The notes under the pieces: model-generated | Told to the model about the DNA's origin: nothing | What the model saw: only the letters and a program-made list of their open reading frames with translations | Database searches by the model: none | Made by a program: the position numbers and the translations under genes | Assembly (NCBI GenBank): GCA_037783545.1 | Contig: JBBELK010000001.1 | Location: 2,046,001-2,110,000 of the forward strand | Origin: Henricia sp. BOLD:AAB3569 | Lineage: Eukaryota > Echinodermata > Asteroidea > Spinulosida > Echinasteridae | Direction of reading: 5' to 3' | DNA length: 64,000 nucleotides | Shown: in pieces, positions 19,175-51,700 of the stretch | Layout: the number at the start of each line of letters is the position of its first letter | How positions within the stretch are numbered: the stretch's first letter is position 1

Positions 19175-20060
19175 CATTGTATTGACCGACGCAATGGCCG
19201 TCCCCAATTCGCTCCTAGTCACTCTGGGATGAGATGTACCCGAAGGCATCCTCAGTGTGGCTTTCATTTTGCAATTGTCGGTCGAGGCCATCTCCAACCC
19301 GCTCCTAGTCACTCTGGGATGAGATGAGCCCTCTGTTGTCAGACTTGTACTTGAAGGTGTCGCCATTCTTCCTCTAGGGCGCCCTCAGTGTGGTTTTCAT
19401 CCTGCGATTGTCGGCCAAGGCTGTTCCTAGTCTCTCTGGGATGAGATGAGCCCTCTGTTGTCATACTCGTACCCAAAGGCGTGGCCATTCTCCCTGTAGG
19501 GCGCCCTCAGTGTGGCTTTCATCCTGCGATTGTCGGCCAAGGCTGTTCCTAGTCTCTCTGGGATGAGATGAGCCCTCTGTTGTCATACTCGTACCCAAAG
19601 GCGTTGCCATTCTACCTGTAGGGCGCCCTCAGTGTGGCTTTCATCTTGCGATTGTCTGTCGAGGCCATTTCCAACTTGCTCCTAGTCATTCTGGGATGAG
19701 ATGAGCCCTCTGTTGTCAGACTCGTACCCGAAGGCGTCGCCATTCTCCCTGTAGGGCGCCCTCAGTGTGGCTTTCATCCTGCGATTGTGGGCCGAGGCCG
19801 TCTCTCGGAGCAAGTTCGATCTATAGTCGACTAGAGTCCCTAGAACAACGGAAATTACCCGTCGTTCGAGGGACTCTAGTCGACTATAGTTAACTATAGT
19901 CGCTTGATCGAACTTAGCCCAACTCGCTCCTAGTCACTCTGGGATGAGATGAGCCCTCTGTTGTCAGACTCGTACCCGAAGGCGTCGCCATTCTCCCTGT
20001 AGGGCGCCCTCAGTGATTTCTGAAGCTTGACTTTCATCCTGCGATTGTCGGTTGTCGCTG
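19175..20060 (-). repeat. Tandem array of CEP89 last-exon copies (about 6 units)
   Basis: The final exon of CEP89 (20095-19930) encodes ...DNRRMKV...LRAPYRENGDAFGYES..., ending SSQSD and TAG. Downstream come about five more copies of the same stretch: the stop-codon positions repeat at 19930, 19682, 19549, 19427, 19305 and 19215. Units are about 120-130 bp, except the first interval (248 bp), which has a palindromic insertion, and the last, which is shortened to 90 bp. The copies lack a short piece present in the working exon between CTGAGG-side and AAAGTC-side sequence, so they are more like each other than like the exon. They lack a splice acceptor and probably sit in the 3' UTR or 3' flank. 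Confidence 0.9.
19802..19918. mobile_element. Small inverted-repeat element nested in the last-exon array
   Basis: About 115 bp with arms AAGTTCGATC...GACTAGAGTCCCT and its reverse complement (AGGGACTCTAGTC...GATCGAACTT), inserted in one copy of the CEP89 last-exon array. It accounts for the long 248 bp interval between two stop-codon copies. Confidence 0.75.
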
Positions 20061-23000
20061 TTTGCCACACTGTCTCCAACTGCTCTTCGAGATTCCTGTG
20101 AAGTGAAAATAATTAAAGTGTCCAGCTTCACCCAGGATTCAATACAGCTTTAATACAGGGTGTCCAAAAAATGTCCAGATCAAACCAGACAACCTCAGAA
20201 TCACCCAGTTTAGGATTTGTCAATAGGCAGTCACTCCTAGTCGAGGGCTGACTTTGCTGCACCAAAAATAACTTTTGATCCGCTTGACGGATTTTGATGC
20301 AATAAAGACTATCAGTATCTGGGGAAACTTAGACCCTGTTCTCACTAGAGAAATCGCTTCGTTTAACGAGGATTAATTAATTATCGTTAGTTAATGAAGC
20401 GTGCGTTCACATATCACTGGACGAAGATAGAATGAAGAGCGGTACCGTACACATTATAAGCGACCGCTAACGAAGATCGAATGAAGTTGTTGGAGGTCGT
20501 ACATACGCGCTGTGTGGGTTTTCCAGTGGCGCGTCAAAAACAACACTTGCTGGGCGCTTGACACACAACGCGCTTGTGCAACTGGGCATGCCGAATTGCT
20601 TCGTTGAACGAAGGGAGCGTTCTTATTACAAATTTGCTTTATCGAATGAAGCTATGGCTTCGTCGAATGAAGCTATTTGCTTCATCGAATGAAGCGATTC
20701 CAATCATCGTCGAATATAGAGGCGTGTGTTCACATCAGGAAAACTCTTTGTAGAATCATCGTCGAACGAAGCGATTTCACTTGTGAGAATGGGGTCATAA
20801 ATTCTGAGGTTGCCAGGTTTGACGCGGACATTTTTTTAGGACACCCTGATAGCAAAAAGTTTGAAGAACACTCTTATACGATTCTGCTATAGCGGCCATC
20901 AAAGTACTAGACCACAACAGAGAGTTAACAATAAAACTATTAACTCTCTGTGTAACCCACCTTTTTTCCAATGTAAAAGTATCAAGGGAATCCTGTTTTT
21001 CCTGTACGATGGTTTTGAGGTGTGCCATTTCTCGTTCGTACTCTCTAAGCTGACTCGCATGGCTGTCATCCTGGGCTTCAATACGGCTGGACATGTTCCC
21101 CAGTTTATGGTCAGCTTTCTGCCTGTAAGACTGCCAATAAACGACACACAAACTTGCTAATTTTAAAATTCAAGCAAATGTGAGAGAATGTCGTTTGGCT
21201 TGCATCTGAGAGAATGAATATATTAGTAAAGGTTTGCTTTGTCCCATCCGATGTAAATTTATTAGCACTCATGATTCCTGATACACTATGAGAAAAACTT
21301 CAGAGTGTGCTTGGGTAGGACCTGAACCCACGACCTCCTGCATATTAGGCAGATGTCTTAACCACTTGACCACCAAGCTGGCAGATGTTAATGAGCAGCC
21401 GGTTCTCCACGAAACCCGCTGCTAAATGATTTGAACCATTTGCTCGGTGGTCGAGAGGTTAAGATGTCTGCCTAGTTTGCAGGAAGTCGTGGGTTCGAGT
21501 CCCACCCGAGCACACTATGAAGTTTTTCTCATAGTGTCTTGGGGAAGCACTGAGTATATACCAAGTACAGTGAAACTTGTCTATTGTGGCCACCCTCGGG
21601 ACCGTAAAATATGGCCACTATAGACCTCTTATCCAGTGGCCACTATAGACAAGTTTGACTTTTAAGCATACTTTGTCTTTTGCAAAATGATTCAGAGCTG
21701 TACAATACACACTACTGGACCTTGTGGGATAATTTAAGGAGTTGTTCAGATTTTTCCAGAAAATTAATTTCGTTCTAAGCCAATGTCGTACATGTACGAT
21801 CTGTCGTATGCATTCTGAAAGTATTATCGTACATGTACGATCTCGATTGTATTATTTCCCCCGCCCCCAAAAAAAGCCAACCGTCGCGCATGTAAGACTT
21901 CAATTACGAAAAACTTTAGGGTTAAATGTTAACAACAATGGGCACTAAAAGAGTTAACAGTCACATAAAAGACCTCCCCAAAATACTATCCATGAGAAGA
22001 AAACAGGAAATTTGCAATCTCCAATTTGGACGTGGAAGCAAAGAGGTTGGTGTAATCACTGCACTGCTTTATGGAACTGGATAAATTAGTTTATAAAACA
22101 TCAGTGGTTTTTTTAGAGCGCCAAATTTCAGAATGGAAATGAGAAAAATATGACATGGGAAAAAAATGATGATCTAGACACGCTCCTTTAATACGATCAA
22201 GCAAACTTGAATCCTAAAGATTAACTGAATTTTGAGCTGCCTTATAATTTCTACAGTAATAAAATCTTCGAACAAATCTTTCACTAGTTGCCGATACCTT
22301 TAATTTCTCCTCCAGTCTTCCGATGGCAATATTCCCTGCTAGCATTTTGTTCACCGCTTTCTTCTTTTCATGCTCTTGACTTTTAGCCTGGGAATAATAG
22401 AAAGAGAGCAAACCTGTGTCCTGTTTACAGTGTTCTCCACTGGTTGTTATCTTGTCTGAGCAGCGCCCTCATGCAGTGAACACTGACCAACCCCCAAAAT
22501 CCTTGTTTGCTGTGTGAGGGGCGCTGTTAAAAACATATGTATGCAGCTATCATGGCCGTGTGATCGGCTGTGGATTGGGTCGCCGATGCAATAGATTTAA
22601 AAGTGTTAAGTAAATGATAATGACACCAGCAGCTAGCGAAGCACGTTTGGTGATTTTACAACTAATTTTGGAATAACTCGGCCGTACTTCTGTGCCCAAT
22701 TTCATAGAGCTAGCTGAAAACGTGTGCTTACTGTAGCAGAAACGTTGTGCTAACGTTAAGGCTATTTCACGGCCGCAGCGTGCTTAAGCATGCACGCGCT
22801 TTGAAACCGCCATTGTTGCGTCACTATCTTAAGCAAAATTTGGCTCTGCGGTTAAGGCAGGTTTTCAGTTGCTTACCGTTAACGATGTCTATGAAATAGC
22901 CTGACGCTCGGTTAATGGAAAATGGGCTGTTAAACAGCTCTATGAAATTGGGCCCAGGTGTTTTTAGAGAGTAAATGGATCGTTTTTGTCTGGGCAGCAA

Positions 23001-26000
23001 ATTTTTGTTTAGGGGCTAACAGCACCTCTGATGATTATTTGTCTGTTGATCACGTTCAAATGACGTCACTTCTTACAAATTACCACGTGCATCATGATTT
23101 TGAGCGTATTTTGTTGTAACGCTCATCGGTTGCGCCGTATTTCAAACAAATTTTGAGCAACACGCGCGCGCGTTTAGAACATGTTTCAGGGTGTGCATGC
23201 GCGTACTTTATGGCGTTTAATACGCAGTAGCATTTTTTCCTACGAAGATGGCGTCTGTGAACGTGATCAATAGGCAACACACCCGGATAAAACAGCTTGT
23301 GAAGAACCTTGGCTTTAAATTTTTTAAGTGCACTGTGTACGGCTCAACAGTTACATTCAAGTCACACAGTGAAACCCTGAGCTACGCTTGAGACTTAAAC
23401 CCAAATCTTGAATTATTCACTTTTGATTTAACATTTGGAAACCAAGTATTAAAAAAAAATGATAAACAAAAAAATATTGAATTTTCAACTGGAAAAGCAT
23501 TTAAGAAAAAAAGTGTTTTGCAGTTTTTGAAAAGTGAAGTTTTGCAGTTTTTGAGATATGGCACAAAAATCTTTATCTCATGAATGACAGCCTCACCAGT
23601 GGCGGATCCAGCCTCATTAAAATACAGGAATACAATGGAATTCAGGGGGTCCGACTCCCTGAATTCCATTGTATTCCTGTATTTTAATGAGGCTGGATCC
23701 GCCTCTGCTCACCACTTGTGTTAATGAATCTCTCTCAGCGGCCGTCTGCTCTGCAATCTCCAACACACTGTTTAGATGCTGGTTGGACAAAGCCAGTTTG
23801 TTCTCGCTGTGCTCCAATTCTTTTTGTAGCAGCGCTATCTTGTGCTGTAGTTTTCTGCAATTACCAGAAAAAATGGTATCACTTTTTCAAATTGCACAAT
23901 TTCATAAAATGCATGATTTTATGGAGAAAACGTCACTGGCCAACAGTCATCACTCTTTTTGTGAGAAAACATAAAACGTTTTAACCAGTTCGCGACGGGG
24001 AACTGCTAAGTGCATGGGGCGGTTATACAGAATTAGCCCATGGGTCAGTAGCAGGGCAGAGCTAACTGGTCTCTCATCTTGTTGGCTTGGGGTCATATCA
24101 GTTTTAGGTTTTTGACCTGTGACTGGACTCTGGAGAAAATGACTTGTGACTGTACTTGGGAAATAAGATTGATTTACGACTTGAAATAAAAACTAGTCAT
24201 CAAGTCTCCAGCCCCAGAGACATACATGTATACTGCATAACCAAAACTGCAAGTGCAGTCTCCCGCTCCAGGGGAATAAATTGGAAAATGCCTAGCTGTC
24301 GCGAAGGGGTTAATGACAGGGACCTGAATTGAAACCAAGGGACTTGTGATGATTTGGGACAAGCTCAACTACAACATTATAAGATCACAGGTTTTATCAT
24401 AGTCTTTTTATACTCTCTATCTGGCATTTTCCCCAATGACTCACTTCTGAACTCTAGTCAATGCCTTAATCTCCCCCTGCATCTGGCTTTCCTCCGCCTC
24501 CCCGTCAGCAACCTTGATAGCCAGTGTCTTCTTCTCACTCTGAACTGACGACAGTTTCAGCAACACATTGTCCATCTCAGCTCGATGCGTACGCTGCTCA
24601 TCCTCAAGCGATCTGAAAGAGAAATTGGTGACTTGACTGAGAGTTGTATTTAATGTTGGGACTTAGAACCAAATTTTTGAATATTCAGTTTTGATTTTAC
24701 CATCCGATTTCACACTTTGGAAAGTAAGTATCAAAATAAAATTGATTTTCCATTTTTAACTCAAACCGAAAATGATGAAAGTGTGTGAATCTATGAATAC
24801 AATTATGAGAGTAAAATTGATCCAAACAAAAGATGCCAAACAAAAGAGAGGCATGACACCTCTAGAGGACATAATTAATCTTTATGGTCTCAGTTGTGTC
24901 ATGTATGCAGATGACACTCAGCTTTATATTGCCTGCGAAACACTGACGGATACGTCAGTTATTGGCATAGTTGAGGCATGCATTGACAGGATTCGTCAAT
25001 GGATGAGTTCAAACTGGCTTGCTCTTAATGAAAGCAAGACAGAGGTTCTCAGGTTCTCATCGAAATTTAAGACGACTGTGTCCGCTGGTGTTCCAGATGA
25101 GGTAGTTGTGTGGGTGGGTGACAGTCTTGTTCATCCCTCCTCTACAGCACGTGATCTTGGAGTAACATTTGACTCCACTGTCAGTATGAACGCTCATGTA
25201 ACTAATGTTTGTCGATCGGCATCACATGCCCTTTGGAAAATTAGGAAAGTCCGCAATATTTTGGATAAGGCTGCTACAAAAAAGTTAGTTCACGCTTTTA
25301 TTAGCTCCCGCTTAGACTATTGTAATAGTCTTTTGTTTGGCCTTCAGTCAACTGAAATTAGAAAGTTGCAACTCATTCAGAATTCCGCTGCTCTACTGGT
25401 TGCCAGGACTGGCATTCACGAGAGCATTACCCCTATTCTTAGAGACCTTCACTGGCTGCCGGTCGAGCAGAGGATTCGTTTCAAAATTCTTGCCATTTCT
25501 TATAAAGTAATCAAAAATATGAACGCGCCAATTTATCTTACTGAATTGTTAAACCTTCGTGTGCCAAAGAGAGGAACAAGGCAAAGCAGTGCAATTTGTC
25601 TTGAACCTCCATCAGTTAAGTCAACTAGAACAAAATATTATGCAAATCGTGCATTTTCAGTTGTGGCTCCAAGATTATGGAATGGGCTTCCTGTGAATAT
25701 TCGAGATGCCTCCACTTATGAGTCATTTAAGTCCTTGCTTAAAACTTATCTTTTTAGGGATTTTTTTTTTTGTTAGTGAGTTTCGTGGTGTTATTGTATT
25801 TATAATGACTTTTTTGTAAAGTGTGCAGAGATATTTATGTTGTGCACTTTAAACAATAAATGATTGATTAGATTGATTAGATTGCTCTGGCGGGATGCCA
25901 AGATAGCTCAGTTGGTAGAGCAGTCTGTTGGCCATGTATGCCAAGGACCTGGGTTCGAAGCACTGCAATTTTCTTGTGTTTCTAAATTCATGTTTCAAAA

Positions 26001-29000: not shown

Positions 29001-32000
29001 TAATTTGCTTAGTTGCACTCCCATGCAACACCAAGAGAAAAACTTGGTTTGTATGGAAAACACGAGGGAATATACCAATGTGTCTTATATAGACGAATCC
29101 GGTTGCTGAGGACTCCTTATACGCCCGCCATTACTGGGGCCTTCCACTGCCATCAACTGGGTGCTCTGTTTGTTGTTAAATCGAACAACGCACAACGCGC
29201 CCACTTCGCGTACACAGGCTTCGCAAGCTTACAATAAAGCGCAGAATTGTTCAAAGTGACAACATAATGTAACAGCTTATCATCAACAAAAAATGCACAG
29301 TTCATGGCACTGGATGGCCCCCAGTTATGGCGGACGTACAGAGAAGAGGACTTCAGTTCTCGGATTGGTGTATAGCTCAGCTGGTAGAGCATGATCTGCC
29401 CAGTCAATGGTATTGGGTTCAAATCCTTATAAGGCCCATAAGATTAAACATTCCGTCTTTCAACTCAGAAAATTATTTGTATACCATTAAACTCGTAAAA
29501 AAAAAGAACTCAAAAACAAAACATTTATGATTTATTGGAGGCCTGACAAATAAGTGATAGCATGTTGAAAGACTGACCTTTTCTTTGAGTGATTTTTCGT
29601 ATGCTACAATCAGAGGTGACAAGTATTTTGGATCAGTTAACTTGCGTGGAATCTTGCCACGGGACGGCAGGCCGGGTGGGTCACCTTTCTGTACACACAC
29701 ACCAAGGATAAAATATCAAATAGTTCTCAATCTCTCTTAAATTTTTTTCCCAGCAGTCCCTTGGTAATTATCCCTTAAAAAAATTACCTAAAAAATAAAT
29801 AATAATACGTAACCTCTCAATCTTCAAAATCAATACGATTTTACATACACCCTAGAGACTTAGGGATATTAATTGGGGCAAGCCTGGCAGGGGTTTGGTT
29901 CGTATCTTAAGTGATCCCTGGAAGGGATGGTTATCTCACTGAAGGGTTTATCCCTCTGTAGGGCTTGTATAAGCTCACGTGATAGCCAATCCCAATCAGT
30001 GAGGAACAACTGCACTGCCGTGATTCAAGACCACCAGTTGGCTTCATAGCTCAATTGATAGGGCATCTGCATGTTAAGCAGAAGGTCCGCAGTTCAAATC
30101 CCGGTCGAGCCAAGTTGTTTTTCACTATTGTGTTTACCAAACTCATGGACATTTGTCCACATTTGTATCAATTTTTAATTCTAGTGATAATGAATGGGTG
30201 TAGTTCAGCGCCTAGCCCCTTACCTGTGGTGTGGAGTACTAATGGCCTGGTACCTGCTGAGTTGGGTGTTGAGTGTGTGGATAATGAATGGGTGTAGTTC
30301 AGCGCCTAGCCCCTTACCTGTGGTGGTGAGTACTTGGCCTGGTACCTGCTGAGTTGAATGTTGAGTTTGTGAATAATGAATGGGTGTAGTTCAGGGCCTA
30401 GCACCTTACCTGTGGTGGTGAGTACTTTGCCTGGTACCTGCTGAGTTGAATGTTCAGTTTGTGGATAATCGTCTTCAGTTGTTCATTTTCATCAATGACT
30501 TCTTCGGCCTGTTGTCTTATCTGAAATTGCTGTGAATGATCTGTTAAAAGAAATTGTAATAGTCTTCATTTCACATAGTCCTCATTCTGGTTAACAGTCA
30601 ATTCCATAGTGCTGCTTAGTACACAAATTTGCTTAGCATAAAAAGTTAATAGCTTTGCTAAAACTGATCTACCAGCCAAAATTGCTTGTCAACTTGTGTT
30701 CAATAGTAAGAGTAGCAGAACATAAATTAATCGGAATACATTTGTACGATTTTGGCCGGTGATCTAATTTTGTAAAAGTTAACAAATTTGTAAAACCAAA
30801 CAAATTTTTGAAATTGGCCCCTATAGTTACCATACTGCCACCATGTCGTGTCCTTATTGAAATAAACATTATTATTTTCTACTGGGAAACCACTTTCAAT
30901 CACTAAAAACACTTGGAAATCTTAAAAAGCATGTCACACTTTTGTACCCCTAATTTAGGGAATTACCCATCTATATTTCGAGACACTTGAAAAACTGTGT
31001 GAAGCAGGTCCTATTTCTAGGCTGGTTACATACAGCTATACTCCACAGACAATAGAGCCATTATACCACAGGGGCCCAGTTTCTTTCACATAAGGGCGCT
31101 CTTGTAAAAAGATGTGTGTTCACACTGTACACACTTTATAAATTCATCTTTAATTATTGTTTTCTTATAAAAAATATATCATCTCGGGTGAAATTATTGT
31201 ATTGGACAGTTGGAACCACTTCTATCTTGCATTTGAGTAAGACTTGGAAAGAATTTCGTTTACTGGTCGCCACTAATTTTTCTTAAGATGACTCAATAAA
31301 CACCAAAAAGTGAGGAGCAAGAAACATTCAACAGTTTATTTCAAAATTCAAAACTTTCTCTGCCATATGTTCCATAGACTCTGCACACGGCATCTGAGTG
31401 GTGACCAGTGAGCAGAATTCAAGATTATTCTGGTCAGTTGGAAACAATTTTGGAACATTGCAAATCTGTATACAGGCTTTATTAAAACTGCCAAGAGCTG
31501 ACCTGCGTCTTTCATGGATTCAGACAGGCTCCTCAGGTTGGTGTTCTCTAGATGCAAGTGGTCGTTGACACCTTTGATAGCCTCATTGTCCAGCCGCAGG
31601 TTCTCACACAGCTGATGTAAATCCTCAAGTGGTTTGGGAGTATTGTCTGAACATCAAGGGCACAAAAATACAATGTTGTATTTTACGCAGTAGTGCAGTG
31701 AAGGCCAAAACAAGATGGATTTAAGGAGACTGTTAGTCTTTACATGAGCTTTTACAGACATACTCTTGTTGGGCAAAACAATTTCCTCCCTCAAACTTCA
31801 GTCAAATTGTGACTGGTATTGGAAGCCATTTTTTACATCATTGCATCGCGGGTTTTATGACGAATACAACAAAGAATGCTATGGAAACCATCAGCGTACT
31901 TAAGGGAGGATAGTGCCACCTATGATGCCTACAGTTGAAGTCAGAAGTATAAATACATGTACACCACTACAATCATCACCCAAAATGGTAAACAGGACTA

Positions 32001-38000: not shown

Positions 38001-40899
38001 TATCATACAATTAAAAATCAGCCAGCCAACCACACATTTATTCCCTCATCCAGTCAGCTTTAAAATATTCACCTCTGGTGTTTTCTTGACTTTTGCGTAC
38101 ATATCCTTTGTGTTCTCGGTTTCTGAAGAGAGTCGTTCCTTCTTCCGTCTACCTTTGGGTCTTCTCGGATTTTCCTCCGACAGATGAGGGCCATCCCAGT
38201 CCTCTGTGCCGTTAACCTCTCCCGACCTCTCAAGTCCCGACCTGTCAAGTTCATGGCGCAATCGTTCCCGCGGGGAGGGGTCGATTTGCTCACGTTCCCC
38301 ATCTGTGGGCCGAACGTCAGCTAAATTATAATCGTCTTCGTCGCTGCTTAGGACTGAATCTGAGTCACTGTGGGCGGGAGTAGCCAACTTTGAGCGGTTG
38401 CTGATGGTTCCACGTTGCTGACGGCTTGCAATGACAGCGGGGACGGTCGAGTATCTACAAGTTACATAGAATGAAAAATATTATGAACATTTGTAAGTGA
38501 ACAATTAATTTCTGCAATAAAAAACTGAATTGTTTTTTAAAGGAGTAAAATACACTCGACCAAAAAAGTTCTGTCACCAGTAAGACATTTATAGATATTT
38601 ATTATTAAATTGGATTTAATGTAGGAAAATAATATATAAAATTTTAGCTGAACATATCCCTCAAAGGAATAGAGTTCAAGAGAGATCATGATGGCCAGCT
38701 TCACTGAACAGGAATGCAACAGAGGAGTATGGGGTCAGAATGAAAAACACAAAAAAACAACGATGTCAACTTTATTGCACTCAAGCAAGGGGAGTTACTG
38801 TTCAGTATTTTGCTTCCACCATACCTAATGCAATGGCACAATTCAGATTGGACAATTTAACCATTTTGATTTGGATGTTTTTAACAAGACATTGATAAAT
38901 CCAAACTCACTTAAACATTTTCTAATTGTCTACACACAAATTGTCCAAATCACAAGTTGCATTGTTCTTTGGTGTTTTTCATTCTGACCCCACACTCCTT
39001 TGTTGCATGCCTGTTCAGTGAAGCTTGCCATCATGATCTCTCTTGAGCTCTATTCCTTTGAGTGATATGTTCAGCTAAAATTTGATATATTATTTTCCTA
39101 CATTAAATCCAATTTAATAATAAATATCTATAAATGTCTTACTGGTGACAGAACTTTTTTGGTCGAGTGTACATTTTGAAATGTGATGTTACACAATGTT
39201 AAACAATTTTCTTAATGTCAATTACTCCGCTACCAACTTCAATCTCATTGCTCGAAAGCGAGTGAAGAGCATTGCAAGTTTGTACGTGTTACTTAGGCAC
39301 TTTTTTTGCCAAATTATTGGAAGGAATAAATTAGCTACACATTAAGAAAATTTTCAAAATAAAAGACACAGCAATTCCAATTTGCACACGGAAATTTATC
39401 TGGTTTAAATCGATGGGCTTTTTAGGTCACCTACGGTACATATTTTTAAATTCTCTTTTTGCCACCATGAATCACCTAAGGACCCTTGAGAATTGAACAT
39501 GTGTGAAAAGGTCTTAAATCTTTGTGCTTTACCACGAGTCATCATAATTATGATCTTTTTAATTCTCATCCTCTTCACTATCTCCATATAAATCAATGAA
39601 TCACCTTAGGACCTGATATTTTACCCAGTGTGAAAGGAACTTAAAATCTCCTTGCTTTACCCTGGGTCATAACAATTCTGATCCACTTTATTCTCCATAA
39701 TCTCTAAGGAGCCCTGGGATTTTAACAAGCATATGACATGTGTGGAAGGTCTTAAATCTCTGTGCATTACCCTGGTTCATCATAATTCTGATCCTCTTCA
39801 TTCTCATCTTCTTCACTATCTCCGTAATCGTACATGCTGCTCCTTGCCATACTGTTCTCCATGCTGGTGCTAGCCCCACCCTCCCTCCCCAATGACCTTG
39901 CAGACACGCCCCCTCCTGTACTCCTCAGGGTAGCATCGGGAGGGGGCGTGGCTATGACCCGGCCGACGAGGGAAGCATTCAGGAGGGCCGAGGAGAGTGC
40001 AGAGGGAGGGCGCTCTTCTAGAGGCTCTGCCTGCGGCTCTGGAGACCGGGGTACGGCTGCAAACATTGCTCGAGGGAACAAAGCCGACCCTATATGGGAC
40101 TGAAAATAAAATAAAGAATCATTTTTATACATATTGGGAAAAAAGAGGTCAACAGCAACTTCTGAAAATAGTTTTTAACCAAATAGTTTTATGGCGAGTT
40201 AATTATAAGGAAGTTAATTGTTCCCCCAGCCCCCCCCCCCCCCCCCTTCCATCCCCCATCCCCCCCCCCCCCCCCCCCCCCCCACACCCCCCCCCCTTCC
40301 ATCCCCCATCCCCCCCCCCCCCCCCCCCCCCCCCCCCTACAGCTACGTCGCTGATTGAGAAGTTGATCATGGCTTCAGACCTTGTGTGCAAAACATATGA
40401 GATAATGAGACAGGCTGGAATAGTGGAAAATGTCAAAGTGTTTCCTCACAAAATCTTAATTTTTTCCCAATCTTAATTTTTTTCCAATCAAAATTTTGGG
40501 TTTTGCAACAAAATCTGCATATTCCAATGCTAGATGAGTCATTTGACAAAAAATAAACATTTTCTGATCAACTTTCCAACTCTTACCAACGACATTTCCG
40601 AAGGCGAGTTGTCGGTTGTCTGAACGGACGAGTTGTCCCGCTACGCTAGTAAAACCCTAAGCCAAATTGGCATGGCAACGTTAACAACCGCACGAATCAG
40701 TCATGCATCATTGTCGTTGTCACACGCAAAAACAAACGTGAATTTTTGAGTATAATATATCAATCCATTTCACTAGCTTAGCTTTACAGGGAAGAAAATC
40801 TCTTAATCTATAAAATCAGACTTATTTTCTTACCAATGGCTTCTTCTTTTTCCCCTTTCGGCGAGATTTGCCAAGCCCGAGACCTTTACCACCTGCCAT
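19930..40899 (-). CDS. CEP89: Centrosomal protein CEP89 (CCDC123), complete, 18 coding exons
   Basis: Exons in transcript order: 40899-40834, 40099-39771, 38454-38073, 37203-37062, 35282-35179, 33689-33587, 32896-32696, 31646-31503, 30540-30410, 29688-29578, 28822-28686, 27420-27305, 26903-26723, 24612-24445, 23854-23713, 22387-22298, 21130-20961, 20095-19930. They total 2883 nt (960 aa; human 783), all GT-AG and in phase. Exon 2 encodes PPSALSSALLNASLVGRVIA, like human [21 protein letters not shown]. Exon 10 encodes DPKYLSPLIVAYE (human DIKYLSPLLLAYE). Exon 12 encodes HARIVLEENQLI (human QAKLVLEENKLL), and exon 16 AIGRLEEKLK (human RLGKLEEKVK). From about residue 376 to 945 the protein is coiled coil; residues 1-340 are low-complexity and charged. 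CEP89 is a distal-appendage protein of the mother centriole needed for ciliogenesis, also reported at mitochondria. Exon 11 uses the donor at 28684-28685: stopping at an earlier GT breaks the frame and loses the conserved SSxxxTxxEW segment. The start at 40899 opens a basic Gly/Lys-rich N-terminus and is the least certain part. Confidence 0.93.
20332..20795. mobile_element. MITE, 464 bp, ends GACCCTGTTCTCACTAGAG
   Basis: Left GACCCTGTTCTCACTAGAGA and right TTCACTTGTGAGAATGGGGTC are near complements. The interior is full of CTTCGTTCGACGAAGC-like repeats. Lies in the last CEP89 intron. Confidence 0.8.
21265..21575. repeat. Inverted SINE family B dimer with cloverleaf heads
   Basis: The minus-strand copy (21265-21400) and plus-strand copy (21436-21575) face each other across about 35 bp. 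The plus copy keeps a full 7 bp acceptor stem (TGCTCGG with CCGAGCA), a T-arm GTGGG/CCCAC with TTCGAGT, and an anticodon stem CTGC/GCAG. The tail is TTTTTCTCATAGTGTCTTGG. Its repeat nature argues for a SINE rather than a tRNA gene. Confidence 0.8.
21590..21660. mobile_element. Short hairpin element
   Basis: ACTTGTCTATTGTGGCCAC and GTGGCCACTATAGACAAGT are inverted around an inner GGCCACTATAGA copy. Confidence 0.65.
21950..22180 (+). repeat. Dispersed repeat shared with 63190-63420
   Basis: ATACTATCCATGAGAAGA, TTTGCAATCTCCAATTTGGACGTGG and CACTGCACTGCTTTATGGAAC recur at 63190-63420 with slight changes. Confidence 0.65.
22513..22990 (+). repeat. Dispersed repeat, copy 2, interrupted by a MITE
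   Basis: Matches 7133-7300 on both sides of the insertion at 22692-22957: CGGCCGTACTTC before it and GTGTTTTTAGAGAGT after it. Confidence 0.75.
22692..22957. mobile_element. MITE with GGGCCCAATTTCATAGAGCT ends
   Basis: Left GTGCCCAATTTCATAGAGCT and right AGCTCTATGAAATTGGGCCC. The inner arms CTATTTCACGG and GATGTCTATGAAATAG are also inverted. A second copy is at 43218-43477. Confidence 0.85.
23046..23270. mobile_element. MITE family I, ends TTGATCACGTTCA, copy 1
   Basis: TTGATCACGTTCAAATGACG on the left and GTGAACGTGATCAA on the right. The interior has TGACGTCA and AAGATGGCG. The second copy is 47749-47975. Confidence 0.8.
23598..23710. mobile_element. hAT-like MITE hairpin at the CEP89 exon 15 donor
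   Basis: A near-perfect hairpin with about 50 bp arms and a short loop. Its ends, CAGTGGCGGATCCAGCC and the complement of GGCTGGATCCGCCTCTG, resemble hAT-type termini. On the minus strand exon 15 ends GTG, the intron reads GTGAG, then the element starts; on its far side GTGAGG follows. The 5 bp direct repeat GTGAG thus duplicates the 5' splice site. Confidence 0.8.
24850..25882 (+). mobile_element. 5'-truncated CR1/L2-like LINE, reverse transcriptase C-terminal part
   Basis: An open frame runs to TAG at 25776 (its first ATG is 24772, but the LINE-like part starts near 24856). It holds the last part of a non-LTR reverse transcriptase: the catalytic YADDTQLYIA motif, then WLALNESKTEVLRF, then the C-terminal region with RLDYCNSLLFG, RDLHWLPVEQRIRFK and RLWNGLPVNIR, typical of the CR1/L2/Jockey group. 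The endonuclease and most of the RT palm are missing, as is usual after incomplete reverse transcription. The 3' UTR is only about 80 bp and ends in short repeats of the type GATTGATTA, like CR1/L2 3' ends. It lies antisense in the CEP89 intron between exons 26903-26723 and 24612-24445. No frameshift or stop is seen in the remaining RT, so it is fairly young, but it cannot move on its own. Confidence 0.85.
25893..25965 (+). repeat. tRNA-derived SINE head
   Basis: TAGCTCAGTTGGTAGAGCA fits a pol III A box and GGGTTCGAAGC is a degenerate B box about 40 bp later. It directly follows the LINE tail. The cloverleaf is not intact, so this is a SINE remnant and not a tRNA gene. Confidence 0.6.
26210..26620. 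mobile_element. Long-hairpin MITE, ends TCTATTTTCAATACTGGAGA, copy 1
   Basis: Arms of about 190 bp: GTCTATTTTCAATACTGGAG...TTCTCTCAAAACAAAAG and the complement CTTTTGTTTTGAGAGAA...CTCCAGTATTGAAAACAGAC. Copy 2 is at 47087-47512. Confidence 0.85.
27078..27240. mobile_element. MITE with GGCCATAACAGGGGGCA ends, copy 1
   Basis: CACCGGCGGCCATAACAGGG on the left and CCCTGTCATGGCCACTGTGC on the right. Copy 2 is at 45470-45622. Confidence 0.75.
27606..28069. mobile_element. TTAA-flanked MITE family Q, full copy
   Basis: TTAA then AGATAGTATACATGATTGGT on the left; ACCAATCATGTGTACTGCCT then TTAA on the right. The interior has TTCGCCC/GGCGAAGTGG repeats and CGTCTCGCGAGACG. It appears to sit inside a family R element (28071-28310 continues it). 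Confidence 0.85.
28071..28310 (+). repeat. TTAA-flanked MITE family R, copy 2 (3' part)
   Basis: GAAGAATGTTGGAAAACTAGCC through GTTGCAAATGGGCCTTTAA, matching 9840-10075. Confidence 0.65.
29365..29450 (+). repeat. SINE family D head
   Basis: GTATAGCTCAGCTGGTAGAG (A box) and GGGTTCAAATCCTTATAAGG (B box), tRNA-like with a degenerate acceptor stem. Confidence 0.6.
29868..30170 (+). repeat. SINE family A, full-length copy
   Basis: A 5' unit of about 170 bp, then the tRNA-like GGCTTCATAGCTCAATTGAT...GTTCAAATCCCGGTCGAG, then the tail ending CATTTGTCCACATTTGTATC. It is the best ordered copy in the window. Confidence 0.8.
30187..30470 (-). repeat. Tandem copies of CEP89 exon 9 3' end with its 5' splice site
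   Basis: Exon 9 (30540-30410) ends RYQAKYSPPQ followed by GTAAGG. The same segment recurs twice downstream in the intron, with donors at 30408-30409 (used), 30316-30317 and 30222-30223. The period is about 92-94 bp. Each copy keeps CAACTCAGCAGGTACCAGGC-like exon sequence and CAG/GTAAGG. Reading past the first donor gives a stop after three codons (GTA AGG TGC TAG). Confidence 0.9.
30880..30967. repeat. Half copy of MITE family D
   Basis: TTGTACCCCTAATTTAGGGAATTACCC with its subterminal sequence equals the inverse of 8375-8475. Confidence 0.7.
31930..32164. mobile_element. Tc1-type MITE with Sleeping Beauty-like ends, TA flanked
   Basis: TACAGTTGAAGTCAGAAG on the left and CTGACTTCAACTGTA on the right. 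Sleeping Beauty and related Tc1 elements start CAGTTGAAGTCGGAAG, and TA is their target duplication. At about 235 bp it is non-autonomous. Confidence 0.85.
32378..32543. mobile_element. MITE family D, 166 bp, with TTAT target duplication
   Basis: GGGTCTTTCTATAAATTAGG and CCTAATTTATAGAAAGACCC are perfect complements. TTAT lies on both sides. Confidence 0.85.
33027..33571. mobile_element. Harbinger-like MITE, 545 bp, TAA target duplication
   Basis: GGCCCGCTTCAAACGTTGAG and GCGCGACGTTTGAAGCGGGCC are near complements, with TAA on both sides (33024-33026, 33572-33574). GGGCC-type ends and a 3 bp TWA duplication fit PIF/Harbinger. A 158-codon frame inside is made of the repeat itself. Confidence 0.8.
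33864..34005 (+). repeat. SINE family A, tRNA-like head and tail
   Basis: GGCTTCATAGATCAATTGGT...GGTTCGAATCCCGGTGGAGCC followed by TTTTCACTGCATCCAGATTT. The 5' unit is missing. Confidence 0.8.
34051..34412 (+). repeat. SINE family C, class II tRNA head, full length with (AAT)n tail
   Basis: The head has acceptor stem GGTACCG/CGGTACC, A box TGGCCGAGTGGTTAGGG, a long extra arm and B box GGGTTCGAATCCG, as in tRNA-Leu/Ser. The body has CATCCTTCGGAAGGGATG and GATCCCAGAGCATTCTTTCG, and it ends in (AAT)n. Confidence 0.8.
34790..35127. mobile_element. TTAA-flanked MITE family Q
   Basis: TTAA then AGGCAGTATACATGATTGGT; right end ACCAATCATGTATAATATCT then TTAA. The interior again carries TTCGCCC repeats. 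Confidence 0.85.
35386..35552. mobile_element. MITE with GTCAACATTTTCACAGTTCT ends
   Basis: CAAAGCTGTCAACATTTTCA on the left and TGAAAATGTTGACAACTTTG on the right, 167 bp, in a CEP89 intron. Confidence 0.8.
35718..36475. mobile_element. Complex inverted element of TAGGGCGAC repeats
   Basis: The outer arms ACTCTGAATGCCGCAATAGG and CCTAGCATCCAGAGT enclose many copies of TAGGGCGAC and GTCGCCCTA in both orientations. An internal end-like copy (CTCTGGATGCCGCAATAGG) at 36019 suggests one element inserted in another. Confidence 0.75.
36113..36232. mobile_element. Nested hairpin MITE
   Basis: AGCCGCCATTTCGTGGGGCA and TGCCCCACGAAATGGCGGCT are perfect complements 120 bp apart, inside the 35718-36475 element. 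Confidence 0.85.
36743..36866. mobile_element. MITE with CTAGGCTGCTTTCGAGCGC ends
   Basis: CTAGGCTGCTTTCGAGCGC and GCGCTCGAAAGCAGCCCTAG; CACCAGGGA and TCCCTGGTG are also inverted inside. Confidence 0.75.
37893..37985 (+). repeat. SINE family B fragment
   Basis: GGTTCGAGTCCCGCCCGAACA and the tail GTGTCCTCAGGAAACACACT, then ATAGTGCATACCG. Confidence 0.55.
38551..39171. mobile_element. mariner/Tc-like MITE palindrome, TA flanked
   Basis: Arms of about 210 bp beginning TACACTCGACCAAAAAAGTT and ending AACTTTTTTGGTCGAGTGTA, flanking a unique centre of about 200 bp. Located between CEP89 exons 2 and 3. Confidence 0.85.
39460..39830 (-). repeat. Diverged tandem copies of CEP89 exon 2 3' end with its 5' splice site
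   Basis: Exon 2 ends with an acidic stretch (GDSEEDENEEDQNYDEPG) and GTAATG. Two diverged copies lie downstream in the intron, with the GT at about 39659-39660 and 39531-39532 against 39769-39770 for the used donor. The period is about 110-128 bp. In translation the copies still read like MEIVKRMR...IIMMTRGKAQRFKTF in a shifted frame, and the intron part (AAGGTCTTAAATCT) is also repeated. They are clearly older than the other arrays. Confidence 0.8.
40222..40337 (+). repeat. Poly(C) tract with two CACACCC/TTCCATCCC breaks
   Basis: About 115 bases almost all C, 120 bp upstream of CEP89 exon 2 on the coding strand (as G). It breaks into two similar halves. Confidence 0.9.
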
Positions 40900-43477: not shown

Positions 43478-43683
43478 GGCCTCAATCCCAAGCAAAACTA
43501 GTACATCTGTTCGAAGTGAAGCACAATGCTGCAGTGTAAAATCCATACAAAAGTGCAGTTTATGCACCAGAAGCACTGCAGTTACGGAAAGCAAGAAAGC
43601 AAGAAGTGGATTTGTGTATAACAGCATGGATTACCAAAGCCTATCAAGTACATGTAGTTGACTGCTATAGCAGCATCGATTAG

Positions 43684-43925: not shown

Positions 43926-44894
43926 CAGTGTTAGTATTAGTCTATATACACTATCCAAATGGCAGAGTTAGCCCAACATCAAATTTAAAATCAAGAGTTA
44001 TTTACACACATCACAGGTAGAACTGCGGAGCCCCGTTTTAAACATTGTGTACCTAAAAACTAACGAGTTATTTTCCGTCCAACAAATTTAAGCATTTGCA
44101 ATGTTACTCCAGCTTAACTCCCCCAAAAACAAAAACTAAATGAATCCTGTAGATGATGCTAAAAAATTAAAACTCACCAGAACTCAGTGGTCCAAAAGTC
44201 ACAAGAAAAAAAAACACATGCTGACGAAAAAAAAAATTAAAAGGACAGTCAACACAAACCAAAGAATACTCCTTTGGCACATCACTGACAAATATCACAA
44301 AAAATACCAACACAAATCACAAGTCTTTAAGAGGAAAACACCTTGTTTTGGGGACTGAGTAAAAAGGCGACACTAAACACAGGTCATATTTGTTCCGAAG
44401 ATGAAGTTATGTATCACCATAATGGGTCAAGATTCACCGCCGATTTAAAAAAAAAAAAACACCAAAAACCAAAGGAATCACATCGCTTTCTCTAAAGTTC
44501 CAAATTTCCGTGCTGGATGATTACAAAATAATGGTAATCAAGCATGATGTTAACATAGAAGTGAGACAATAAATGATAGAGCACAAGCAAGCTGACAAAA
44601 AAAACAAACATTGTCCAAAGATTATAATGAATTATCGACCAGATGAAACATGCACTACAACCATATTTTCCTCAGTATAAAAACAGTGTATGAATTAGCA
44701 TGTGTTTTTAAGGAAACATGCAGCATACATGTATAAGCTAAACTATGCTTTTAAAAAAATGCACAAAAAATTATGCAGCAACACACAGCTTTTAGAGAGT
44801 ATTCTAATAGTTACATGTAAAAGCAGAGATAAGACGTTTAGCTTTAAAGCAGCAACATACAGTTCTCTCTATAAAAAAAAAACAAAAAAAAAAA

Positions 44895-45215
44895 AACAGG
44901 GGTGTGAGTCAAGAACCCAAACAAAATCTGAAAAAAATCTGAAACTGCAATCGTGAAGCTGAAATTGCGAGCGCGAAGCCTGAAGCCCTAACGGCGTGGG
45001 GTCCGGGGCTCGCTTAAATTGCACCGACATCTTGATGAATAAGTGTCCCCAGTTGGTGCATTTTATGGCTTCGAGAATGGAATTTTGTACTGAATGCTGG
45101 CTTGCACATGGCGTGCGCTAGCAAGTGGCATGGGGGGGAAAGCGGAAATATTGGCACATTAAAAAAAGAAGCTGAAAACAGCTTAAAATATGAAATTTCA
45201 CACCCCTGAAAAAAA
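44895..45215 (-). repeat. Dispersed repeat, second copy of 11170-11400
   Basis: GGGGTGTGAG...AAATCTGAAACTGCAATCGTG and CCCCAGTTGGTGCATTTTATG match in reverse orientation. Confidence 0.65.
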
Positions 45216-45469
45216 CACAAATAAAACACCAGACATTACCACAAATGGGTTGATTCCATTCATTAGAACGGCCTTTCATTGTACACCCACCATAGCAATG
45301 AGCCATCTTGTACATAACCCGTTTGTTTTTTCATTACTGCTTAACCAAACAACACATGCCATGTGCAACATTGCCCCTTGTCGCACATATCCTTTTTTTC
45401 AAAATGGCAAATGTACCGATTTGGCAGCAACACAAAACGTACATTTCGTGCACTGGATGGCTCCTACTT

Positions 45470-45622
45470 AATGACCCTTTGTAAAGACGGCCATGACAGG
45501 GGGCAGTCACATTGTCACTGTGTGTCATGCACAAGTAGACACTTTGTAGATCTATTGTCACATCATTTGAATATGAAAACCTGCACCCTGTCATGACCGC
45601 CGGTGCAAAGGGTCTATAGCAG
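45470..45622. mobile_element. MITE with GGCCATGACAGGGGGCA ends, copy 2
   Basis: GACCCTTTGTAAAGACGGCC and GACCGCCGGTGCAAAGGGTC are inverted; the interior matches 27078-27240. Confidence 0.75.
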
Positions 45623-45790
45623 CCACACAATAGAGGGAATCCCAACTTTTAAAGTATGTTTATCATGCAGACATTCAGATTTGAGCAAAAAATGACAGAC
45701 AAAACTTGAAACTTTTGGACCACCCAGTGTTTGTATACTTACACTCACGTCTCAGACACGAACCAACACAATCCAATCCTACCCGTGATT

Positions 45791-48700
45791 TTATCGTCTG
45801 CGACCCCGACTCCGCGACCGACTTCGCGTCCGGCTGCCGTGACGGCGCCCTCTAGGCGGCTCTTGGATTCTCGCAATCTTCTCTTTTTCCTTTTCTTCCT
45901 CCTCAAATTTGCGTCGTCTCTCCTCCCGCTCTTTAACCCGTGCGTTGTACTCATTGGTCCTCTGTTCAATCTAAGATTGAAAGAACAGCATTGTTTACCA
46001 TAACTACATAAAGAGCATACTATGTACGAATCCGAAACTTTTGAGGGGTGGCGGTTGATAAGAATCGCAAACTTTCAATTAAAATTACATTTAAACCTCA
46101 ATAAAAATACTTCCCAGATCACCTTGCGACAACAAGAACTTTCTATTATCAAGAATGAAAACAGTAAACTGGGACCTAAACTTTTCCTTGTTATAAGAAG
46201 AATGCTGTATCGTCAAGCACCCAAATAATGACTGGAGTTTGTACACCTTCAAATCACTGCTTCTGTGCTCAAAGTTAAAGAGAAATTACACCCACGAAAC
46301 ACTTGTTCAGCACAATGTCTTGTTTCTTGTGTGTAATTCCCCTTCAAGCAAATATAAATTTGAAAATGGTGTGGGCAATTTTCACACAGAGTGCCACTCT
46401 GTTTACTAGACATTCGATTAAGAACCCGTCGAATAGCATACATTGAGATCATAAGGATTCCGTAAAGGTATGTTGCTCCACAGTAACTGATCATACTTGG
46501 AATTTAAATCATTAACAAGGTAATTTCTAGGGCTGGGCGAATAGCTCGATTAATCGAGAGTAGTAAACGGTACTCGAAATCCCGATTAGCATTTTTAAAC
46601 TACTCGATTAATCGCGGCGCTGCGAGTACCGTTACATACTCCGCGATTACGCTATACTGTTACACTGTGACAGTCCCCTTTCTTAAAAGACGGCTCGTGT
46701 GCAACTGAATTTTATTGTGTAGGCCTATGCTGACAATTTCAACACATAGGCCTACACGTACAACTACGTACATGTACGTGTTTTTGGTTTTATTTGCCTT
46801 TTGATACGTTGCAAACTACTCGCGATTAATCGACTAGTCGCGAGTAATTGCTGCAACTACTTGCGAGTAACAAAATCCACTAGTCGTCCAGCACTAGTAA
46901 TCTCTCAATCCTCCAATGGAGGAATTGAATAATACAAATCAATTCATCAGAGATTCAGTCACGATTCTGATTCCCAGAATTAAAAAAAAAAAAAAAATCT
47001 AGCCCGAAACTACAAGGCGCAAAATAAAATCAAAAGTTGGGGATGTGTCTTATACATGGGTACACCTGCACCTTGTACTCGTATATATGTCTGTTTTCAA
47101 TACTGGAGAGATCTTTTCATCCAGGATTATATCTCTGTACAATGTCATTCATCTTCTCTCAAAACAAAAGAAATATCTTAAGATAGATTTGAGGAGATAA
47201 GTTCAGCTAAAGAATGGCAACGAATAGTGTCGCAATATACCTTTCTGAAAATCATGTGTGCAAATTTCCAATATACCGTAAGTAACAAGGACACCAAAAA
47301 ATGTCACAAAGTATGTTTCCTTTGTTACATACGTTATATGGGAAATTTGTACACAGGGTTTTCAGAAAGGTATGTTGTTGCACTATTTGTTGCTTAAGTT
47401 ATCTCCTTAGATCTGTCTTAAGATATTTCTTTTGTTTTGAGAGAAGATAACTGGCATTGCACAGAGATATGTTCCTGGTGAAAAAGTCTCTACAGTATTG
47501 AAAACGGACTCATAAGACACATTGTGCCAGCTGTATACAGTTGGAGGTGCTCCTTATACATGCGATTTTACGATACCTGTTCATCAGTGAGTGGAAGCCA
47601 GTAGATGCACGGCGTGGCCTTGGTCTTCCTGAAGAGATCGTCCAAAAGCTTGGCAGGAGGCTCTTCTGGTTCTTTTGCTGATGTAAAAACAGATCAAAGA
47701 AGAGTACCAAGTTAGCCATGAGTATGAAGTAATGCTTAAAGTCAATCAATTGATCACGTTCAAATGACGTCACTTCCTACAAATCTCCACGTGCATCAGA
47801 ATTTTAAGCGTATTTTTGTGTGACGCGCATCGGCTGCGCCGTATTTCGAACAAATTTCGAGCAACACGCATGCGTGTTTGAAACATGTTACAGCGTGTGC
47901 GTGCGCGTACTTGATGGTGTTTAATACGCAGTAGCATTTTTTCCTACGAAGATGGCGTCTGTGAACGTGATCAATAGAATGCCATGGCCAAGTTTATACC
48001 GAATTCACCTTACAGGCTGCAAAGTGCATCATCGTTTTCTCATGCATCCATGAAAAACATTGCCTTTTGGAACTTTTTTTTTTTTTTCTTTTGTCAAAAA
48101 TCAGCATCTTCCAATTTTTAGCCGTATGAAAATTCGAAATCAAAGGTTGGCAGGTATGGGCTTATAAACCCTACCACCATGGTGCACCACTCACTGCGGC
48201 TTGAGAAATTTCTACTTCTGCCTGGAAAGGCCACTACGAAAATGGGGCCGACTTCCAAAGCGCCAAGACGCATCTTAGGAAGTGGTTCACTCTTGAGAAA
48301 AGAGCATTAATCTCGTCTTAACTTTTGTGAAATCGTCCCTGGCCTTTGATTAGTTAAGGCACAGACCTTGACAAAATTCCGACTTAGCTACTTCAGCACA
48401 AACAAACAAAATACCAATGGGTGGATTGCTTGGTCAGAGTGTCCCTTTTCCTATCGTGATTATCTTACCTTTCTGTTCAGCATGTCTCCTCTCGCGTTCC
48501 TTACGTCGCCTCTCCCTGGACAGACTCCGTTCCCTATCGCGGTCCTATTCCCTTATGGGTGGCTTGGTCGGCCTGTCCCGCTCCCTATCGTGATTATCTT
48601 ACCTTTCTGTTCAGCATGTCTCCTCTCGCGTTCCTTACGACGCCTCTCCCTGGACAGACTCCGTTCCCTATCGCGGTCCCATTCTCTTATGGGTGGCTTG

Positions 48701-51700
48701 GTCGGCCCGTCCCGCTCCCTATCGCGATTTTGTTCCCTGTCCCTCTCTGATGCCCTGCGTTCCCGTTGTGATCGGTCAGCACTGGACGGTGTCTCTGGTT
48801 TAGGCACTGCTTTTGGAATGATGGTCTTGCCCATGTACCTGTCCATCTGTGTGAAATGGGTACATAATTTTATTCAACCTTTTCATGTTTTCAATTTAAC
48901 TGTGGTTCAGAACTAGAAAACATGAATGTTCAGCCACACTTGGACAACACTGCATGGGTGAATTACACACACGGCCCATTTGCAGCTCATGTTGTGTGTT
49001 ATGGGGACATCGGGTTACCAATCATGTCGTAGAAGGATAGTCCATTGCAATGCACTCCAAGCAAGTTCACATGAATTACTGTACACAACCGGCAGTCTTT
49101 CTGCTGTCATACGGTAATACCGAGAAGTAATGGTATTTTTAAAATACCGATTAATACCGAAATACCGGCGAACTTGGTATAAAGTTCATTACCACGGTAT
49201 CGTGAAATTTTTACCAGCATGAAAAGAAATTTGCGCGACAGAAAGTCATGGAAATTAACAGCGTTGAGAATTTGGGTGTTGTGCAAGATATTTGTTCAGT
49301 GTGTGAAGGGACCTTTCTCCATAAGAAATACTGGCACGCACATGCTCCGTGCGGAGTTGGTGTTACTTTCACCTTGACACACTCACTTGTAACACTGTTA
49401 TGTGCAATGTATTTGGCTGGCTGCAAGTGCTGTGTACAATCGATCGGCATTGGATCGCTAGCCCGGTAGGAGTGCCTGCGCGATCGCGCTCCCTTAAATG
49501 AAGGACTGCAGGGACTGGCATAAAATACAATACTTGGCAGTACATGTACTTGGTACTGGTACTCAGATGAACACTGGCCGTGAAGTTTTTAATCATGCCT
49601 TGGGAAAATAAAATGATGCCGGGAAAGGGTAAACAATGACTAAACCCAGATACAAGGTATGAGATCTTTGAGTGGACTAAAGATCTTGTTGTTCTGGAGA
49701 CCATACCTCATCACTGGCAGCAAAGTCCACACGTAGAGTTTTAGGGTTGCTGTTTGGCCACTTGGTACCGTGAAGACTGTCCCGACAGGACGCAGCCTCC
49801 TCCACTGAAGTGAACTGTAAACAAACCAAACAGGAAATAAAACTAAAAATATGAGCACAAAATGAGTTGTTTACTGAGAAGTCGCAAGAAACTTGGTAAT
49901 TCTGCCTGCTCTAAATAGTGTAGGGAACTTGGCTAAAAGGTCAAATAGTAAGGGCCCAGATTAAATGAGAAGTATACCCAAAAGACCCTACATGCATTCT
50001 TATGACAATACATTAAAAATGTATGGAAAAATATTTTGTGTCCAATTTTCAGAAAAATGGCGGTGCTCATACAAGGCATCACTGCAATTCTCATTCTTTG
50101 GGAAGTTTGTATTCACTTCTGGATGCAGTGAAAAGCAACTTGCCTCCACCGGGATTCGAACTGCGGACCTTCTGCTTAACGTGCAGATACCCTACCAATT
50201 GAGCTATGAAACCAACTGGTGGTCTCGAATCAGGGTAGTGCAGTTGTTGCTCACTGATTGGGATTGGCCATCACGTGAGCTTAGCAAGGCCTACAGATGG
50301 ATAAACCCTTCAATGAGATAACCACCCCTCCCAGAGATCATTTAAGATATGCCCCAAACCCCTGTCCGGCTTGCCCCAATTATTAAGTATGAATAAATGA
50401 TAATTTTTTTTAAGGGATTATGACCTAGGGACCACCGGGGTGAATATATTCGATACAAATGTGGACTTCTCAGTTGTCATATTTCTTGTTCTTACAATAG
50501 GCCCTTACGATTTTTATCTCATCCCAAGTTTAGTTGTTTTATTTCAATGGTGATTAGCACCATATCAGATGTTGCGAATGTATAACAATAATGTAGAAGT
50601 TGCACTTGTTCAGCACAATGTTTTTTGCTTTTTGGGTATACTTCATGTTTAGCAAAAACTGGCAGTGTCTATCAAAAGTAATACAGCAGGGGCGTAGGCT
50701 GGGGGGTGGTGGTGGTGGTGGTGGGTGGGTGGGGGGGGGGGGGGGGGGGGGGGGATTTTATGAGATATTTTAAGAGTTATGTAACAGGCAGACCCAACTA
50801 GACCACATGCCTACACAATTGGTGCAGATGAGATTCACAATGCTTCACATGAATGGTGTGAAATTTCGCAGCTCTGTGGCGGCTAATTTGCAAAATATTG
50901 CAATATTGCAGTTGCAAAAATGTGCATTTCTTTTTTAAGGCCTGTCTACACGAGCCAACATTTGTTGGCCAACAAGGTTCAACATGTATCCGACGATGTC
51001 GGCCGACCAAAAGTTGGATGGTGTGGACGCCACTCCAGACGACGTCTAACATCATCCAACAAGTTGAAACATGTTGGAGCATGCAGCTATCGCCCGACTT
51101 TGTTGGAGGAAACGGGCCAATAGCAGAGAAGAACGCCTGTCACGTGATGGCCGCAGCTAACCACTGTCGAGATATTTTGGATCATGTTGGGTCGTGTGGA
51201 CGAGCGCATCCAACAACGCCCAACAAGTTCCAACTTCATGTTGGACCTTGTTGGCCAAGTTAAGTGTATATGTTTATCTGAAAACACTAACCGCAGCAAA
51301 GCAGTGTGACTTGATACTATCAATCCAGAACCCATCTTCAGTCTCCATCTTCCCAAAGCGACCCAGCAATTCCTTGAGTTGGTTCAAGGTGTATGGTCTG
51401 ACAAGATTCATCACGTGAACGATGCTGCTCTCCGGGCGATGTGAGGGGCTTGCCTTGATTGGCCGGCCCTCGACGCGAATTGGCTCGTCGATTGAGGTGC
51501 GAACGACTTCGCGGAGCTTGGTCTTTCTGGTTTCTGTGAACATTGTAAAGGGAGAAAATTACATTTGAAATTGATAATCTAAACGATTTTAACACTGCCC
51601 CAAAAGACTATTCATTACGTCACAAATCAGAAGTTTGTGCATAATGGAGTTTTATTCAAGCGTATAAAATTACATTGTTCACCATTTAACTGGGAAACCT

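Follow-up and report, generated by a model that had tools for sequence, protein, structure and literature searches.

Tandem arrays of exon 3' ends and their 5' splice sites in a sea star genome

Results

Exon-end arrays in the window

The window, a stretch of 64,000 nucleotides of sea star (Henricia sp.) DNA, contains a CEP89-like gene and an ACIN1 gene, and four of their exons are overlapped at the 3' end by tandem arrays (Table 1). A preliminary description of this DNA had reported four such arrays, and all were recovered where it placed them by Tandem Repeats Finder together with an ungapped lag scan; only the lag scan detected the diverged array of exon 2. Its statement that three of the four copy the 5' splice site is also correct: the donor is repeated in the exon 9, exon 2 and ACIN1 arrays, and the fourth repeats a coding end with its stop codon. 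The gene name ACIN1 is supported by an RSB motif (3.9e-16, Pfam). The name CEP89 is unconfirmed, as Pfam gives weak coiled-coil matches only, and the coding part of the terminal exon has no Pfam match.

Copies in the ACIN1 array are 91% identical across 186 bp, with donors at 48602 and 48468. Those of the exon 9 array are spaced by 92 and 94 bp with 93% matches and have donors at 30409, 30317 and 30223; the start of this exon was set by eye, at TTTCAG. The exon 2 copies lie 110 and 128 bp apart and are 85% identical in their ungapped parts, with GTAA at each of the donors (39770, 39660 and 39532); the two downstream copies are older. The terminal-exon array has its TAG stop inside the first copy and is broken by an inverted repeat, located by eye at about 19811-19915. 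Immediately upstream of exon 2, at 40222-40341, is a C-rich tract more than 100 bases long.

Table 1. Features of the window and array loci found elsewhere in the genome
Feature	Position	Strand	Basis
CEP89-like gene, terminal exon, coding part (..NLEEQLETVWQTATTDNRRMKVKLQKSLRAPYRENGDAFGYESDNRGLISSQSD, stop); array's first copy	19930..20095	-	Sequence reading
Terminal-exon array, units about 122-133 bp; coding end and stop copied into 3' flank	19196..20015	-	Tandem Repeats Finder, lag scan
Exon 9 (IRQQAEEVIDENEQLKTIIHKLNIQLSRYQAKYSPPQ), last bases CAG, then GTAAGG	30410..30520	-	Weak coiled-coil Pfam matches only
Exon 9 array, about 3 copies of exon end, donor and intron start	30186..30469	-	Tandem Repeats Finder
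Exon 2 array, three diverged copies of exon end with donor	about 39508..39826	-	Lag scan
ACIN1 exon, ending before GTAAGA	48603..48849	-	RSB motif of gene at 47577-47654
ACIN1 array, 2.3 copies of exon end and donor, 134 bp	48422..48741	-	Tandem Repeats Finder, lag scan
SINE piece, tRNA-like, 78 bp, tandem pair; comparison case	60805..60957	.	Tandem Repeats Finder, lag scan
L045, counted			No family match
L047 (with L046), counted			Cation_efflux, Pfam, below curated cut-off
L050, counted			VWD, Pfam, below curated cut-off
L058 (with L057), counted			No family match
L059, counted			Dynein AAA_6, Pfam
L060, counted			Dynamin GED, Pfam
L061, counted			ELP1, Pfam below curated cut-off; also matches ELP1 in PDB
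L072, counted			Aconitase, family match
L075, counted			PHD_5, Pfam, below curated cut-off
L080, counted			IFT81, family match
L082, counted			
L083, counted			ABCC5, best match
L084, counted			CNH, Pfam, below curated cut-off; no PDB match
L086, counted			No family match
L088, counted			No family match
L055 copies, not among the 15 counted			Aldedh, Pfam, above cut-off

The claim that the window holds nothing comparable away from exon ends, a tandem SINE pair excepted, is nearly right; Tandem Repeats Finder also detects arrays of 17-bp units, with a higher-order period of 66 bp, at 541-664 and 1533-1672. Five arrays in the window are of about 75 bp or longer, and three of these cover a donor (p about 0.001, assuming 0.5 donors per kb, our own estimate), a figure to be read in the light of the window itself having been picked for the pattern. 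Tandem pairs and longer arrays of the tRNA-like SINE piece, about 78 bp in length, occur elsewhere too (G000:C121:872769 and G000:C163:13156-14343).

When the exon 9 array was used as a query of the assembly, it found its own place alone among the 41 matches listed (40 of 687 candidates scored); the other 40 matches span query bases 439-611 and belong to a different repeat. Among the matches listed, the exon 9 region is present in the assembly as a single copy. Judged from these matches, the exon 9 unit, the one window array covered by this search, would not be a dispersed repeat family.

Exon-end arrays elsewhere in the genome

Genome-wide pattern searches, followed by reading of the stretches concerned, revealed at least 15 further loci with arrays of an exon end plus donor (Table 1). 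Exons were called from open frames and splice signals, with family matches, several of them weak, at 10 of these 15 loci outside the window. Screening the whole genome for pairs of AGGTAAGT motifs lying 41-101 bases apart gave 49 hits (reversed control, 207); 15 places were read, and five distinct loci appear to be coding exon ends with an array: L045, L047/L046, L050, L055 and L058/L057. L055 (G000:C666) was kept out of the count, since its true exon was not reached; its long array, which repeats the end of an aldehyde dehydrogenase exon and the donor, extends through L137 and has 11 intact donors in L055 alone. A three-copy AGGTRAG search gave 357 hits (control, 580), and nine places were read among the matches listed (100 of 357), five of which are exon ends (L080, L082, L083, L084 and L086). 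L059, L060, L061, L072, L075 and L088 came from searches by motifs other than the donor. The call at L045 rests on an open frame that runs in frame into a plausible next exon; a second family search in the likelier frame found nothing. We take L082 to be HIBADH-like and L047 to be SLC30A9-like.

Several candidates were rejected. The remaining AGGTRAG places read (L079, L081, L085 and L087) are not exon ends, and L051-L054 look like chance donor pairs. L049, L056, L079 and L044/L048 are without a clear coding exon and were not counted. L063 (G000:C141:3267700-3268900) was also left out: its 91 bp array starts just past the donor of an exon that is presumably SNF2-like, leaving the donor uncovered. 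L064, L070, L071 and L089 were set apart because their arrays lie within open frames or have a period that keeps the frame.

Array anatomy and copy number

Units measure 61-134 bp, the listed spacing covering more than one unit where some donors are mutated, and the sequence matched before the donor extends over 13-127 bp. Where the 5' edge of a locus was read, the exon passes into the first copy without a break. In the 18 arrays measured, the identity of downstream copies to the first ranges from 73 to 100%, and GT is retained in 74 of 80 downstream copies. L047 and L046 lie on near-identical contigs (99.7% over 1,166 aligned bases) with 8 and 7 copies, respectively. L058 and L057, about 84-90% alike, have 6.5 and 2.5 copies and are alleles or paralogues. 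The arrays overlap clear exon ends and vary in copy number between alleles or paralogues at these two pairs, as variable minisatellites at exon-intron boundaries do. Some searches return near-identical contig pairs, and parts of both haplotypes therefore seem present in the assembly.

The difference in copy number between near-identical contigs makes it extremely unlikely that the arrays are artefacts of assembly. This assembly can concatenate, as indicated by a mitochondrial contig with three COX1 copies (see below), but in most arrays the copies differ by substitutions and spacing, L075 being nearly uniform.

Frequency of arrays at donors

We compared the number of arrays lying over donors with expectation in two ways. 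In the first test, 28 arrays with a period of 50 bp or more were collected by searches that do not use the donor motif, and six of these (L059, L060, L061, L072, L075 and L088) cover a coding exon 3' end, compared with about 1.3 expected (p 0.0017) for an assumed 0.5 donors per kb and 95-bp units. The 28 comprise 18 Tandem Repeats Finder arrays that were read (L059-L067, L069-L075, L077 and L078; L068 and L076 had none), six read from an acceptor-motif search (L088-L091, L094 and L095; L092, L093 and L096 had none), and four judged unread from their listed rows, namely two families from an ATTGCC search and two arrays from the acceptor-motif search. They were drawn among the matches listed (100 each of 207, 1204, 1121 and 2004), the rows to read being selected by eye from visible strings; arrays under 50 bp, pairs of dispersed elements and rows judged to be chance were dropped before counting. 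L061 was recognized as an exon end after its other end had been read, and L071, L077, L090 and L094 also reach the edge of their stretch. A donor density of about 1.05 per kb would remove the signal.

In the second test, five of seven distinct AGGTAAGT array loci with a period of 40 bp or more look like coding exon ends, compared with about 10 of 40 AGGTAAGT sites that look like coding donors (8 to 14 on stricter or looser reading). The 40 sites were every second row among the matches listed and were judged by eye with a codon score. Fisher p is 0.026 for 10 such sites, 0.012 for 8 and 0.083 for 14. It rises to 0.06 without L055, to 0.11 with L045 taken as non-coding and to 0.21 with both changes, and is 0.05 when near-identical sites among the 40 are merged (about 7 of 25). 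Because p increases once the doubtful loci are left out or the repeated sites are combined, this test is only suggestive of a donor excess. Nine of the 40 sites (L102, L103, L106, L107, L114, L116, L119, L127 and L133) share the flank ATGACCCATAAG before GTAAGTCCC and represent a dispersed repeat with a perfect donor-like motif. L108-L111, at about 1.038-1.085 Mb of G000:C1, are four closely similar exon ends that share one donor sequence and seem to belong to a local cluster of genes.

Raw counts point the other way. Pairs of AGGTAAGT number 49 per 14,466 single sites, fewer than the 207 per 26,738 of the reversed control, and AGGTRAG triples are likewise below theirs; the reversed-control rows contain satellites and dispersed elements. 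Taken together, the evidence for an excess of arrays at donors is modest. The earlier proposal of a process, selection or tolerance acting near exon 3' ends has support from the further loci, from the first test and from the lack of recognized exon 5' ends, but is weakened by the fragility of the second test and by counts below controls.

Chance alone would require that tandem arrays arise anywhere and that the presence of several at exon ends in the window is fortuitous. The genome is large, the donor-motif counts and second test are as described, and neither of the two array families from the ATTGCC search looks exonic (judged from rows among the matches listed). The excess in the first test, and the fact that no array at an exon 5' end was recognized, make chance an improbable explanation.

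A mutational process favouring tandem duplication at exon 3' ends, such as one involving repair or breaks linked to transcription close to the 5' splice site, is consistent with both tests and with the polarity of the arrays described below. The numbers are small, however, the donor density is assumed, and the second test loses significance under the changes given above. Nor is a fixed break point seen, the length of matched exon sequence before the donor being so variable. We regard such a process as unlikely, if less so than chance.

Polarity of the arrays

Both ends and both strands of the arrays read were scanned for exon 5' ends, and none convincing was found in or beside them. L057, L058, L059, L070 and L089 scored above the threshold of 4 and were judged unconvincing, the scores being explained by copies of the exon end itself, by the wrong strand or by a position inside long open frames. 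Counting only arrays not chosen by donor motif, the ratio of 3' to 5' ends is 6:0 (p 0.016). Adding the three window donors gives 9:0 (p 0.002), but the window was chosen for the pattern and 6:0 is therefore the safer figure. Two acceptor-motif searches gave 2004 hits (control, 434) and 56 hits (control, 66). These searches have little power because true acceptors are, by our estimate, a small share of such motifs; the larger set of hits contains very many satellites, and the smaller one enters as a count alone.

Reading frame and substitutions in the copies

Sixteen arrays (two from the window and 14 loci, with L055 included and L045 and L061 excluded) were read in frame past the first donor. 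A stop is encountered within one unit in 15 of the 16, the exception being the aconitase locus L072, and unit length is divisible by three in 3 of the 16. Because of these stops and unit lengths, useful alternative donors among the copies are unlikely, as far as reading of the DNA can tell.

Substitutions were examined for signs of constraint. Over the 18 arrays, mismatches to the first copy amount to 5.4% of exon positions, 3.5% of positions in the nine-base donor and 5.7% of intron positions. Divergence is lower in the donor bases than elsewhere (25 of 717 compared with 336 of 6140, p 0.02) in this set, in which many arrays had been found by donor motif. In the seven arrays not picked by that motif, two of them from the window, the difference is not significant (7 of 225 compared with 100 of 2098, p 0.32). 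Measured against the consensus of the downstream copies themselves, deviations amount to 2.0, 1.3 and 3.3% at the first, second and third codon positions and to 3.2% in the intron part (p 0.007). This effect is carried largely by L058 and L086 and is absent in L055 and L072. The bias may indicate that copies are repeatedly derived from, or exchange with, the constrained exon; some downstream copies may also be used as exon.

Retention of the copies for a function, such as U1 snRNP binding, a splicing aid, a shield from early polyadenylation or a supply of alternative donors, could account for the frequency with which GT is kept, for the lower divergence of donor bases and for the codon-position bias. 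Against it stand the loss of the donor difference in arrays not picked by donor motif and the stops that follow later donors, and we judge such retention very unlikely.

Discussion

Origin and persistence of the arrays

The arrays are probably the outcome of ordinary tandem duplication, tolerated since the first donor or stop remains functional, with the copies lying downstream of it. They would be locus-specific minisatellites, formed when a segment of roughly 60-135 bp is duplicated in tandem at the DNA level. The duplicated segment would take in the exon 3' end together with the GT donor and the first part of the intron; at a terminal exon it would take in the coding end with its stop codon. 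Arrays would then expand and contract, probably by unequal exchange, while the exon presumably still terminates at the first of the donors or stop codons. Such arrays could be tolerated because the extra copies land in the intron or 3' flank. Duplication at an exon 5' end would instead place a spare acceptor and a piece of exon ahead of the true exon, and would probably be purged by selection, from which the polarity may result. Such a tolerance filter would account for the polarity, for the terminal-exon array in the window and for the damaged frames.

Tolerance alone, however, predicts no excess of arrays at donors over neutral DNA; the first test shows an excess, with which the second weakly agrees. 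Since the filter by itself gives no such excess, a bias in formation, or a greater abundance of arrays in genes generally, is possible. Formation bias may be part of the excess of 6 over about 1.3 among the 28 arrays, which are few and are set against an assumed donor density. Nor would a plain model of dead copies predict the codon-position bias.

Relation to known systems

Tandem duplication of AGGT-containing exon sequence reportedly leads to intron gain, an idea attributed to Rogers 1989 and Hellsten 2011. The preliminary description had suggested that the copies in the window might make new introns. They do not appear to do so: the copies sit in an existing intron with no acceptor or exon start recognized in them, and in the arrays scanned no duplicated segment was found to give both the donor and the acceptor of a new intron. 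In the accessible parts of accounts of intron gain by tandem duplication (Ma 2016, PMC4974935; Lehmann 2010, PMC2891723; PMC3443670), a local tandem duplication likewise copies a splice signal; in the sea star arrays, by contrast, an existing donor and intron sequence are duplicated, and the copies lie inside an existing intron with no new acceptor recognized. In Lipomyces, too, duplication affects the functional donor of an intron already present, giving rise to [D] stwintrons (PMC7138796, as excerpted). There the product is a nested intron, whereas the sea star arrays consist of several units and show no nested intron.

The closest published case found, going by the available part of the paper, is that of human genes in segmental duplications, which carry internal tandem repeats across their exon-intron boundaries (De Grassi and Ciccarelli 2009, PMC2812944). 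Like the sea star arrays, these are variable minisatellites over exon-intron boundaries whose copy number varies between paralogues. The human repeats, in the same part of that source, have units averaging 30 bp, lie in recent primate paralogues and are located in coding exons in half of the cases; the sea star arrays have units of about 61-134 bp, lie in conserved genes and, in the loci found, occupy exon 3' ends. No account of arrays that prefer exon 3' ends was found in a literature search with most subscription journals outside its scope.

It is conceivable, though doubtful, that the arrays constitute a distinct class of sea star minisatellite on 5' splice sites, in which duplication is biased to exon 3' ends, copies return to the exon and exon ends are rewritten over time. 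If the 3' polarity and the donor excess hold genome-wide, splice signals shape where minisatellites can live. Duplicated donors would then be standing, variable raw material for changed exon ends and introns, and the sea star a natural system for the choice among identical donors and for the origin of intron sequence from exons.

Mitochondrial contig

The contig with repeated COX1 (C955 of G000, L001-L003; 48,576 bases) contains three COX1 matches at 16,221 bp spacing, compared with one in G000:C2104, and is probably an assembly-made concatemer of the mitochondrial genome. COX1 gives a good translation when AAA is decoded as Asn, ATA as Ile and TGA as Trp. We take the open frames after COX1 to be ND4L and then COX2, and a frame upstream on the opposite strand to be ND1-like. 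This code, and the order COX1-ND4L-COX2 with an opposite ND1, presumably correspond to the sea star arrangement.
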